This document shows positions 1 to 44,326 of a stretch of DNA of 44,420 bases, in pieces. This DNA comes from a virus. Under the pieces are notes generated by a model. It saw only the letters and a program-made list of their open reading frames with translations. It ran no database searches and was not told the origin of the DNA. The stretch covers positions 1-44,420 of IMG/VR virus record IMGVR_UViG_3300035670_000416. One strand, given 5' to 3'. The translations under genes and the position numbers were made by a program. The first letter of the stretch is position 1; each line of letters begins with the position of its first letter.

Positions 1-573
1 AATTACTTTGTCAGTAATAAAGGTAGAGTGTATGTAGTAAGTATGCGTAGATTTGCTACAATATTTGACAACGGAGCAGGGTATAAGAATTGCTGTGTTT
101 ATGTAAAAGGGCGCAGAGGTTTAAATTCATGCCGATACATTCACAGGCTTGTTGCAGAGCATTTTATACCTAATCCAGACAATAAAAAGTTTGTTAACCA
201 CATCGATCACGACAAGTCTAACAACTGTGTAGAGAATTTAGAGTGGGTGACGGCAAAAGAGAATACAGCACATGGTATTATCAATGGCAGGATCAATGCT
301 AAGAAAAGAGGAAGGACTAATCAGCTTACAGATACGCAAAGATGTAGGTCTGTTGTAATGAGGAAGACTGGCTACGGGGTTAATGAGATAGCTCAAAGTT
401 TCAAGCTACCAAGAACTACAATATCTTCTGTATTTAATGGTAGAAGTAATGCAGAACTGGTTGACTTCATGCAAGAGTTGTGCGAGGATGTTACTGCTGG
501 ACAGTTAGAAATGTCTTTAAGGCTCGACAAAATTAAAAATTCTTCACAAGAAGATGTTGACACAACAGAATAA
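1..573 (+). CDS. HNH homing endonuclease with NUMOD4 remnant (5' end outside window)
   Basis: The frame is open to the first base, and the leading residues YFVSNKGRVY match the end of a NUMOD4 DNA-binding motif. The gene therefore starts upstream, and the GTG at 28 is only an internal codon. An HNH_3-type nuclease core follows: HRLVAEHFIPNP, then NHIDHDKSNN and NLEWVTAKEN. A C-terminal helix-turn-helix segment (GVNEIAQSFKLPRTTISSVF) probably contributes target recognition. NUMOD4-HNH-HTH is the usual order in phage homing endonucleases, which cut a DNA site lacking the element and spread by repair. Its end overlaps a sigma70-like promoter for the next gene. Whether it is free-standing or sits in an intron cannot be told from this window. 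Confidence 0.85.
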   Translation, partial: NYFVSNKGRVYVVSMRRFATIFDNGAGYKNCCVYVKGRRGLNSCRYIHRLVAEHFIPNPDNKKFVNHIDHDKSNNCVENLEWVTAKENTAHGIINGRINAKKRGRTNQLTDTQRCRSVVMRKTGYGVNEIAQSFKLPRTTISSVFNGRSNAELVDFMQELCEDVTAGQLEMSLRLDKIKNSSQEDVDTTE

Positions 574-40348: not shown

Positions 40349-41299
40349 TTAGTAAGGTTTGTTTAATTCTGCTGCGAATGCAGCTTTCTTGATTTGTTCT
40401 GGAGATACTTCATCGCCAGTGGTGGTTTCTTGGAACAGGTCAGATTTTTCTACCAGTTCTTTTTTAGCTTGCAGAGATTTAATCACTACTTCGGCAGCTT
40501 CTGGGCTAGTGGCTTTCATTACGAATAATGATTTAGCAACAGCAGTCAGTTCTTCAGCAGATACTAAGTCTTTCAGAGTTTCTTGGAATGCTTCAAATTC
40601 AGCAGCTTCTTTTTCTTCTTTAGCTTTCTGTACTTGAGTACGCAGTTCAGCAACTTCCGCTTCCAGAGCAGATTTCTCAACTTTGAGTTGAGTAGCTTCT
40701 GCTACGGCAGCTTCGTGAGCTTGCTCGACTTGTTCTAATTGCTCGTAGCGAGCTTTTTCTACTTGGATTTTCAAGGGGTCTTCCTCGTTTTGTTGTTGTA
40801 AAGATTTCTCGATTTGAGACTGGATAGTAGTGATAGCAATAAAATCTTCATCACTGATTGTTTGGTTTGGGTTCTCGTTAAGAGATTTCATAATGGTGAA
40901 CTGAGCTACACGCTCTGTGATCCACTTCTCGTGTTCTTTCTCCCAATCGTACTCACCATCAGAAGATTCACGTTCAGCCTTGGCTGCTTCAAACTCTGTT
41001 TCAAAACCTAATAGCTTTGTAAGGGTTTCTGCATCAGAACTCCACATATCAAAGAACTTACGTAAGAATTCTTCCATTGACATTGTTACAGTAATCTGTT
41101 CTAATGCTTTCTGTACTTTCACTACGTTAGTTGGTTGGATGCCAATGTTGGTTTGCTTAATCGCTTGTTTGAGAACTAAGACTTTAGACTGATTTGCACC
41201 AGAACCTACTTCAGGGCCGACCAGACTCACGTTACTCGTCGGAGAGGTGAAGGATAAGTTCCTCAATAGTCGGGTCGCCTTCTTTTTTGTTTTGTTCAT
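40349..41299 (-). CDS. Scaffold part of a split protease-scaffold gene
   Basis: Residues about 8-45 (ATRLLRNLSFTSP, SNVSLVGPEVGSGANQSKVL) look like the end of an XkdF-type prohead protease domain: the final strand SLV..P and a GAN loop. The rest is a long acidic coiled coil (about 170-245) and C-terminal helices typical of capsid scaffolds. The gene therefore appears to begin in the middle of a protease domain. Its ATG overlaps the GIY-YIG gene by 68 bp and has only a weak site (GGAT). In related phages, protease and scaffold form one gene or adjacent ones, which should be checked. Confidence 0.7.
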   Translation of the reverse strand: MNKTKKKATRLLRNLSFTSPTSNVSLVGPEVGSGANQSKVLVLKQAIKQTNIGIQPTNVVKVQKALEQITVTMSMEEFLRKFFDMWSSDAETLTKLLGFETEFEAAKAERESSDGEYDWEKEHEKWITERVAQFTIMKSLNENPNQTISDEDFIAITTIQSQIEKSLQQQNEEDPLKIQVEKARYEQLEQVEQAHEAAVAEATQLKVEKSALEAEVAELRTQVQKAKEEKEAAEFEAFQETLKDLVSAEELTAVAKSLFVMKATSPEAAEVVIKSLQAKKELVEKSDLFQETTTGDEVSPEQIKKAAFAAELNKPY

Positions 41300-42092
41300 A
41301 ATAGTTTATCCATCTTTCGTCTTTGAGTGGTTCCCACCCAGAAGTAAATTTACTCACAACGTTAGCTATTGACGCAGGTTTTTCACCAATTATTTCTGAG
41401 ATTAGCGTTTTAGACAGCGCCACTTTAGCTCTTAATATAAATATTCTTCCAGCGTTCAACCAAAGATTATGATTAGTTTGAGAATTAGCCCACCACCCGT
41501 GTTTTTCAAAGAATCTCTTGTGACTTTCAGCAGCAAGTAACACAGACTCCTTTTTCGGTTTTGGCCATTGCCAACCACTTTCAAATTTGCGCTTAAGTGT
41601 GGCTTGTCTTTTGGCTACAACTTCTTCTATTGGGACAGGCCCAGATAGCTTTCTCAGGTAAGAAGTACAACCACCTTTCCAGTTATGATGGTCTGGGCCA
41701 CGTCGATTTAAACCAAGACGTTCTCTTGTTTCAGCGGCTTTCTTTGCATAAACCAGTCTGAGTTCTTTAGGGATGTCGGCAGGTAAAGCACCGCCTCTAC
41801 GCATATTCCAACCAATGAAGTCTTCAGGTCTCAACTGTAGTTCAGTCCACTTAGCATGTTCTCTAGAGGTTACGCAGATAGTGTCTACAACTAGATTCTC
41901 TGCACCATACTTGTTTATGGCTTGATGGATTAGGAAAGTAGGTTGTTTTCTAGCTTTACGACAATGGTCTGAGAATCTTTTACTAACGGGCTTGGTGGTT
42001 ATTCCAACATAACCTTGCGTTTTAATGTCTGTATGTTCAGCTAAATGAATCCAGTACACGTATGTAGGTTTTTCATTCAATGACATAACCAT
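41232..42092 (-). CDS. GIY-YIG homing endonuclease
   Basis: The N-terminal part has the GIY-YIG nuclease motifs: VYWIHL (about 12-17), GYVGIT (27-32), KRFSDH with the catalytic Arg (38-43), and TELQLR with the catalytic Glu region. NUMOD3-like and C-terminal helix-turn-helix segments follow (SKTLISEIIGEKPASIANVV, TSGWEPL). It starts inside the last protease codons (20-bp overlap) and ends 68 bp inside the scaffold frame, so there is no room for an intron core around it. It is inserted between the two halves of a capsid maturation gene. ATGs at 42092 or 42086 are possible starts. Confidence 0.88.
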   Translation of the reverse strand: MVMSLNEKPTYVYWIHLAEHTDIKTQGYVGITTKPVSKRFSDHCRKARKQPTFLIHQAINKYGAENLVVDTICVTSREHAKWTELQLRPEDFIGWNMRRGGALPADIPKELRLVYAKKAAETRERLGLNRRGPDHHNWKGGCTSYLRKLSGPVPIEEVVAKRQATLKRKFESGWQWPKPKKESVLLAAESHKRFFEKHGWWANSQTNHNLWLNAGRIFILRAKVALSKTLISEIIGEKPASIANVVSKFTSGWEPLKDERWINYYEQNKKEGDPTIEELILHLSDE

Positions 42093-42549
42093 CTGCCATA
42101 CAATCTATACTGACTGAATCGTAAGTGCCGTCTAGTAACTTACCCCAAAGGTCATCACTCTTAAACTGAAGCCACATAAGCCAGCTACCTTTCTTCACGA
42201 AATCGCCGTATTCTGTAGTGAAATCGCAAGGGGCAATATAAGACTCTTGGACTTCCACTTCATCTTCAGATGCTACATCTTTGTGAAGAATACCGACTTG
42301 TTCACAATGCTTATTGTAATCATGACAAGCTTTTCGGATAGTTTCTTCGTCGTACCAATCACCATGTAAGTCAGCAGTCATGCCGTCTTCATCTTGAGGC
42401 TCAAGAACAACAAATAATGCACGTTTTTGCATTTGGTCTACAGACTTAACCACAGCTACTTCAGCTTCTGGTTTGTTTGGTTGTTCTGATTCACCGATAC
42501 ATGAATCTAGAAACTGTACAAGTTTCTCTAATAGTTTTTCTTTGTTCAT
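42073..42549 (-). CDS. Prohead protease N-terminal part (XkdF-like)
   Basis: The 158-residue protein has the XkdF-type protease elements: KRALFVVLEPQDEDGMTADL, VGILHK with catalytic His89, VQESYIAPCDF, FVKKGSWLMWLQF and LLDGTYDSVSIDCMADG with the likely catalytic Ser147. The usual downstream strand SLV..P and the scaffold region are missing here and appear instead in the gene at 40349. The piece ends at a stop created next to the GIY-YIG gene. It follows the portal gene with TAGATG. It would mature the capsid by cleaving the scaffold. Confidence 0.72.
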   Translation of the reverse strand: MNKEKLLEKLVQFLDSCIGESEQPNKPEAEVAVVKSVDQMQKRALFVVLEPQDEDGMTADLHGDWYDEETIRKACHDYNKHCEQVGILHKDVASEDEVEVQESYIAPCDFTTEYGDFVKKGSWLMWLQFKSDDLWGKLLDGTYDSVSIDCMADGYVIE

Positions 42550-43305
42550 CTACGCAGCATTCTCACTATTTGTCGCACTGTTGTTCTTACCAGCAGCACC
42601 AACGCCGTTGTTCATGCCTTCTGCCATTCCGTCACCACTACGGGTAGTCATGTCACTAAGCTTCGCAATGATTTCATCTTCGCTAAGTTTCTCAACTTCG
42701 GTAGTATCGTAACCACACTTACGCCACAGTTGGACAAGCATAGCTTTGTCTCGTGGGAATAATCCTGTAGCACCTAAGCGTTGACCAGCTTTGGAAGCTT
42801 CTTCAGCGTCGGCTTCATCCAGTTCACCAAACGTCATCACTGGCATATCATCTTCTTCAAGCTTCAGCTCATTAATGTCTGCAAGAGACTTAACAAACTC
42901 ACGCTCAAATACTGTTTTGATATACATCAGCATACGTTCCATGTAGAAAGCATGGACACTGCGACTACTATCTGATAGGCTATGTGAACCTGTGTCACCC
43001 TGACCAACCAGAAGGAAGGAAGCGCCTAGTACATTAAGAATATCTTTCTTACGAGCTTCAATCAGTTCAGATGTTTTATAGGCTTTACTACCACCATCGA
43101 CACCCTTCAGTTCAACATCGTAAACGTATTTACCGTTACCTGTTTCACCGTGTGTGTCTGAACCTAAGAGGATATATGTTTGATCGCCAGCATGAATAGC
43201 GGCGGCATTCTTTTGTAATGCTTTTAATGTGGCGGCTTCTAGACTATCAGGATCTTCAGCAGCTTTGTTGATGTGATCATTCGGAACACGTAATACAAGG
43301 ACACC
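42550..43305 (-). CDS. Portal protein, exon 2 (DUF935-like)
   Basis: After splicing at 43305 the reading frame continues from exon 1 as GVSKDLG then GVLVLRVPNDHINKA, the expected DUF935/Mu gp29-like portal sequence. Exon 2 contributes 251 residues including the DILNVLGASFLLVGQGDTGS and YMERMLMYIKTVFEREFVKS regions and an Asn/Gly-rich tail. An ATG at 43308 would allow separate translation but has no good ribosome site. The full portal is 506 residues, normal for the family. It is the 12-fold entrance of the capsid. Confidence 0.8.
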   Translation of the reverse strand, partial: GVLVLRVPNDHINKAAEDPDSLEAATLKALQKNAAAIHAGDQTYILLGSDTHGETGNGKYVYDVELKGVDGGSKAYKTSELIEARKKDILNVLGASFLLVGQGDTGSHSLSDSSRSVHAFYMERMLMYIKTVFEREFVKSLADINELKLEEDDMPVMTFGELDEADAEEASKAGQRLGATGLFPRDKAMLVQLWRKCGYDTTEVEKLSEDEIIAKLSDMTTRSGDGMAEGMNNGVGAAGKNNSATNSENAA

Positions 43306-43561
43306 CATTTGTTCAAAGTGAGTCGTTAGTTCACTCCAGCGACATTATTCGCTTCTCTATGTTTCCATAAAGTTCAGACTATATCTTCATCCTCTAAGGA
43401 TGCTTTCCATTTCGAGCTACTTAGCCCTACGCTTTTCAGCTAGTCGTTACACGTTCTCATTACTGAGCTTCGCTCGGTATTGTCTCCAACATTACTTGGT
43501 AAGAGTTTCACCGAATTAGAAAAGTTATTCAATGCGTATTACTACACAAGGGGGCAGTTCT
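43306..43561 (-). ncRNA. Group I intron without ORF, in the portal gene
   Basis: The minus strand holds typical group IA-like core blocks in order: GGTGAAACTCTTACC, then CCAAGTAATGTTGGAGAC, then AACGACTAGC and finally AAGATATAGTCTG. GACTA (43441-43445) and TAGTC (43377-43381) form P7; CATCC and GGATG form P8. The 5' exon ends GGGT, pairing with GCCC in the intron (P1, with the usual U-G at the splice site). The intron ends in G, followed by exon GGT, which pairs with ACU (short P10). The length of 256 nt is normal for an ORF-less intron. Confidence 0.88.
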
Positions 43562-44326
43562 ACCCAAGTCCTTACTAACACCAACAACCTCATAGCTTGT
43601 AATCATTTCAAGCTCTTTCCAAGATTTATAACAATCGTATAAATCTGATTTACCTTGAGGATTATTACCTGTACTATTCCAACTGAACAACATAAACTTT
43701 TCTCTAGGAACTTTTTTATCTGTTAAGTTTTGTACAGTGAAAGGGTTGATATTACTTTGTCCGATTATTGTTGCTGGCATCCATTGATACAAGCCATACA
43801 ATTCACGTTTCAATATTGGATCATCAAACCACCACTCACGAACACTCTTTTGTGAACGTGGGGCTAGTTTTTTATATTTATATTTGTATTTACCAGACCA
43901 CTTAATACTATCATTCTTTGCGAAGACTTTCTCAAGCCAAGCAAATCCGTATTTACGGAATGTGATAATATTTGTGATGGCATCATACCAACTATTACCG
44001 ACGAAGTTTTTGATGTTCCAGTTGAGGAAGGCAGCGAAGTCTTTTGACTCTTGACTTCCTGATACACCTGCGATAAACTTTGTGGCAAGTAATGATTTAG
44101 TAAGGAATACTTCACCAGCAGTTAATCCTTGACTAACAGCAGAGGTAGAAGCCATCTTATCGTATGTGACTAAACTATGAGGGAACTGCAACTCTTTCTT
44201 TGCAGATTCCTCAATGTAACCGCCGATGGCTTTTAGATATGGATTGCCGATCTCCCCTAAGCGCAGTCTTGTATCTGAGCTTGAGGGATTAGATTCAGCT
44301 TTCTCAATTTGAATTGTTTCTGACAT
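43562..44326 (-). CDS. Portal protein, exon 1 (DUF935-like)
   Basis: The unspliced frame runs on to a stop at 43529 giving 265 residues, but the last ten (RTAPLCSNTH) are intron. Exon 1 codes 255 residues with DUF935 features: NPYLKAIGGYIEESAKKELQ, FAAFLNWNIKNFVGNSWYDA, WLEKVFAKND, and DLYDCYKSWKELEMITSYEV before GVSKDLG. ATG follows GAGGGGATA. It is located before the protease gene, as in most head modules. Confidence 0.82.

Follow-up and report, generated by a model that had tools for sequence, protein, structure and literature searches.

The td intron of phage T4, a group I intron of subgroup IA2, contains the hairpins P7.1 and P7.2, located between P7 and P3, and also P9.1 and P9.2. IA2 introns account for over half of the viral group I introns in a published database (PMC11835236). 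Phage genes for terminase, capsid, tail, and tape-measure proteins are well documented as hosts of introns, and splicing of these has been shown (PMC3706429, PMC10448857, PMC7344957). Those of phage ICP1 (terminase and tape-measure genes) and Certrevirus CB7 (terminase gene) were found by RT-PCR to be self-splicing (PMC10448857, PMC7344957), and splicing has been shown for Cluster J mycobacteriophages, whose introns lie in virion structural genes such as the capsid gene of LittleE and a tail gene of BAKA, the latter intron being 265 bp long and free of any endonuclease (PMC3706429). Fragmented portal genes have been described for the Jug phages, which carry around 18 introns per genome (PMC12363816). 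Our search of open-access text turned up no description of a portal gene with a group I intron, which is no proof that none has been published.

An initial annotation had proposed that an intron of this kind splits the portal gene of a viral sequence from IMG/VR, a fragment of 44,420 bases that we refer to as the window and that was analyzed as a whole. Covariance-model searching bears this out to the exact base: Minus-strand positions 43561-43306 (256 nt) are a complete group I intron that matches Rfam family RF00028 at 43575-43355(-) with 85.5 bits (E 1.6e-20; gathering score 50 bits). RF00028 is the sole Rfam match within 456 bases around the intron site, and no other match anywhere in the 44.4-kb record passes the threshold of any Rfam family. 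A search for ORFs within 43306-43561 found none, and the intron thus encodes no homing endonuclease of its own. Judging from the sequence comparisons below, we consider it very probable that the element is a complete and almost certainly self-splicing IA2-like group I intron between codons 255 and 256 of the portal gene of a V22-like myovirus. The features of the interrupted gene are as follows (designations such as L003 denote related contigs):

43306-43561, minus strand: group I intron without an ORF (RF00028, 85.5 bits), with 96% identical introns at the same site in L005, L006, and L008/L009/L011
43306, minus strand: terminal G of the intron, 3' splice site
43562-44326, minus strand: portal exon 1, 255 codons, ending in VSKDLG, with the 5' splice site after CTTGGGT (PF06074, 19.9 bits alone)
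42550-43305, minus strand: portal exon 2, 251 codons and stop, beginning with GVLVLRVP (PF06074, 23.6 bits alone)

The two minus-strand ORFs flanking the intron (43529-44326 and 42550-43308) had been read as halves of one portal gene. Joining GGT (43562) to GGT (43305), the splice sites already proposed, gives a 506-aa portal protein of the Mu gp29/Felix O1 gp53 type (PF06074, Portal_Mu) that scores 41.0 bits, close to the 41.2 bits of the uninterrupted L003 protein, whereas the separate halves with 19.9 and 23.6 bits both stay under the cut-off of 23.9 bits. The junction SKDLG-GVLVLRVP aligns without gaps to intronless portals of 95% (L003), 95% (L004), 88% (L007), and 71% (L010) identity and also to portals of around 50% identity, including that of the isolated Alteromonas phage V22 (52%). 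Exon joining therefore restores the gene as found in intronless relatives, and these carry one continuous portal gene rather than two genes; like the strong covariance-model match, this outcome favors the initial annotation. Synonymous and nonsynonymous codon differences of the window to L003 and L004 stand at 57:13 and 38:12 in exon 1 and at 29:2 and 32:2 in exon 2; since they are mostly synonymous in both exons, both halves of the portal are under purifying selection.

The best match among isolates is Alteromonas phage vB_AmeM_PT11-V22, which its authors related to Ounavirinae and Vequintavirinae (PMC7289586). By sequence, the phage is a V22-like myovirus and not T4-like, so that the T4-like framing of the initial annotation holds for the anatomy of the intron, which resembles T4 td, but not for the phage. 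The portal gene is followed by genes for an XkdF-like protease, a GIY-YIG ORF, a gene of unknown function, a decoration-like protein, a capsid E-family major head protein, the sheath, and the tape measure, and in relatives it is preceded by the terminase gene. In the window, the ribonucleotide reductase genes (large and small subunit) and the thyX-type gene each consist of one open frame. A scan of genome contigs found no relatives of the portal, and therefore no host is suggested.

All sequence hallmarks initially listed for the intron are present, namely, the P7 helix (GACTA/TAGTC), the AAGATATAGTC block, the U-G pairing of U43562 with G43555 at the 5' splice site, and the terminal G (43306). 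The core comprises P3, P4, P6, P7, and P8 with a guanosine-binding P7; P7 and P4 are invariant, and P3 and P8 covary. The structural elements are as follows:

43552-43565, minus strand: P1, exon GGGU (43565-43562) paired with internal guide GCCC (43555-43552), including the U-G pair of the 5' splice site; present in the minimum-energy fold
43403-43524, minus strand: P3, CUUUUC (43524-43519) paired with GGAAAG (43408-43403); one compensatory pair (UA/UG/CG)
43456-43467, minus strand: P6a stub hairpin CUCA-GUAA-UGAG (four base pairs), the site of the HNH endonuclease ORF in L012
43377-43445, minus strand: P7, guanosine-binding helix, GACUA (43445-43441) paired with UAGUC (43381-43377); invariant in five same-site introns
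43431-43440, minus strand: P7.1 hairpin, with compensatory GCU/AGC (window), GCC/GGC (L005 and L006), and GGC/GCC (L008)
43414-43427, minus strand: P7.2 hairpin; in L012, both bases differ in four of its five pairs
43388-43402, minus strand: P8 hairpin, from the covariation alignment
43355-43372, minus strand: P9 with a GGAAAC loop; two compensatory pairs
43316-43353, minus strand: P9.1 (43353-43338) and P9.2 (43336-43316) hairpins, beyond the Rfam match; compensatory pairs in both

The Rfam model stops at P9, and the last 49 nt of the intron consist of the P9.1 and P9.2 hairpins followed by the terminal G. The guide sequence GCCCC of P1 is retained by the introns of L012 and L046, and P10, assigned by hand, is short with three pairs including one G-U. 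The RNA folds more stably than shuffled sequences with z -2.49 (2 of 200 shuffles were equally good), and the decisive structural evidence is the covariance-model score together with covariation. The latter was counted in an alignment of five distinct same-site introns, most of the signal coming from L012, with P3/P7 written as a pseudoknot, the L012 ORF taken out by hand beforehand, and L046 left aside from the pair counts because a six-row alignment including it was misaligned in P4-P6. Across the named structure from P3 to P9.2, 97% of cells are paired and 13 pairs are changed on both sides, a number reached by none of 500 shuffles, while structures slid by 1-3 columns give 0-3.

We call the intron IA2-like solely by its anatomy and by comparison with td, because P7.1/P7.2 between P7 and P3 and the P9.1/P9.2 hairpins match td, with sequence blocks in common. 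Both introns contain the blocks AACGACTA and GATATAGTCTG (td read from AF158101), a P7.1/P7.2-type insertion, P9 with peripheral hairpins, a 3' end of the form TGAACA..ATG, and a 5' exon ending in U; they differ in that td encodes the GIY-YIG endonuclease I-TevI whereas the portal intron has no ORF, and in host gene and phage family. The closest DNA match in an isolate (70% over 93%) is the intron of Aeromonas phage phiA009, which sits in the terminase gene and not in the portal gene. Like the portal intron, those of ICP1 and CB7 interrupt myovirus head or tail genes, but other ones, and have an endonuclease inside or adjoining the intron (PMC10448857, PMC7344957); the Cluster J introns share the location in virion structural genes but belong to an unrelated phage family and gene (PMC3706429). 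The location had been described as less usual, which is fair for the portal but not for head and tail genes at large, given the documented terminase, capsid, tail, and tape-measure introns. The element is of a known kind, and what is new is its location in a portal gene.

We infer that splicing takes place in infected cells and would begin with folding of P3-P9 in the transcript. Exogenous guanosine bound at P7 would then attack after the U of the P1 U-G pair, and the released exon 1 would attack behind the terminal G, so that GGU is ligated to GGU and the 506-aa portal is encoded. In unspliced message, the first frame enters the intron for around 10 codons before a stop, which would yield a truncated 265-aa protein. 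It is very unlikely that the intron is instead a dead remnant and the portal is made of two associating polypeptides as has been reported for NrdA of Aeromonas phage Aeh1, a precedent for a split gene without splicing (PMC7344957). Both halves are indeed open, and the second has an ATG (43308-43306), but this codon is made of intron sequence and has no evident ribosome-binding site ahead of it, and the split interrupts the conserved stretch VSKDLG-GVLVLR. Moreover, every core helix is intact and covarying, and at least four distinct intron variants have kept length and splice sites.

These variants also bear on the origin of the insertion, since the window is a metagenomic fragment with the portal gene near its end and an assembly artefact or chimera might be suspected. 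Five other contigs (L005, L006, and L008/L009/L011, the last three with one identical intron) carry a 256-nt intron at the identical base, each 96.1% identical to that of the window; they come from different metagenomes and have different exon sequences, and these independent contigs already refute an artefact, whose probability we regard as negligible. A genuine group I intron at this site is further seen in 2 more distant forms. L012, whose portal is only 60% identical in its C-terminal half, has a 1,013-nt intron at the same base with a homologous core (85% identity in the first 61-nt block) and, unlike the window, a 240-aa HNH_3 ORF (42.6 bits) in the P6a loop. L046 has a 332-nt intron at this base and a second portal intron of 366 nt after the residues IDGS. 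As an observation beyond the portal, adjoining terminase genes also hold group I introns, and records of this phage group contain up to five RF00028 matches apiece:

L046, 4251-4582 and 4799-5164: two group I introns in the portal gene
L003 850-1069, L004 837-1069, L005 553-801, L016 850-1141, and L017 825-1072: group I introns within the terminase gene or next to it, immediately 5' of the portal gene

Among isolates, no intron-interrupted portal was found, with the gene uninterrupted in 60 of 60 sampled records. A split portal in Salmonella phage 19 (KR296684, flagged UNVERIFIED) has overlapping frames and no inserted sequence, making frameshifts likelier than introns.

Close relatives hold both alleles, with L003, L004, and L007 empty and L005, L006, and L008 filled, as is the case for mobile introns. 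On a maximum-likelihood portal tree, intron presence requires six changes, and its clustering is no better than that of shuffled labels. This scatter and the covariation would be expected if the intron is a functional mobile ribozyme that has lost its endonuclease or does without one, and we infer that it spread by homing. Positions -6 to +19 around the site do not vary among the filled alleles of the close group, and the empty L003 and L004 have the same sequence there. The empty state of L003 and L004 may reflect either precise intron loss or sites that were never invaded. In L007, also empty, 13 positions within -6 to +20 differ from L008, compared to around 2.5% elsewhere (binomial P ~1e-14). 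Around its site (3001 +/- 20, codon boundary 255/256), these 13 changes fall in around 26 bases, while upstream exon 1 is around 99% identical to L008. L007 looks derived because L010 retains the common site sequence better, and the cluster of changes fits a changed homing target or local recombination. We consider the case evenly balanced that the boundary is a recurrent homing site, with at least three intron forms (ORF-less of 256 nt, HNH-encoding of 1,013 nt, and 332 nt), a second portal intron in one lineage, and L007 as a possible escape allele.

Most likely, the window intron represents an element in its ORF-less form, with the L012 relative still keeping an HNH endonuclease in P6a, and any present mobility would depend on passive recombination or on an endonuclease gene outside the intron. 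Two ORFs for HNH_3 endonucleases lie elsewhere in the window (28-573 and 1298-1777, both plus strand). The region downstream of the portal gene contains the following:

42073-42549, minus strand: protease gene, only around 36% identical to the closest relatives (portals 95%) and 54-60% to distant contigs
41232-42092, minus strand: freestanding GIY-YIG/homing-endonuclease-like ORF inserted between the protease gene and the next head gene; not present there in close relatives

As an addition to the preferred explanation, this GIY-YIG ORF, which matches GIY-YIG/homing endonucleases and lies around 1.2 kb downstream of the intron, could drive mobility in trans by collaborative homing, a mechanism that has been described in T7-like phages and in one cyanophage and considered for the terminase of ICP1 (PMC10448857). 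We view this as doubtful, since across relatives such an ORF downstream of the portal does not track with the intron: The other contigs with the same intron lack it at this position, and a GIY-YIG-like ORF directly follows the portal gene in L003, where the portal is intronless. Next to the GIY-YIG ORF of the window, the protease gene has been replaced locally, suggesting that the ORF acts on its own site.

The ORF-less intron described here is thus well supported; as a mobile intron it is fairly ordinary, and what is unusual is the essential gene that it interrupts. With it, the portal joins the phage head genes that contain self-splicing introns, here a predicted one. As a common marker gene, the portal will be split into two fragments by annotation pipelines in such genomes. 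The alleles at this very site include ORF-less introns, one with an endonuclease, empty sites, and a possibly resistant one, a small series from nature that can be used to test how intron endonucleases are lost and how introns persist.
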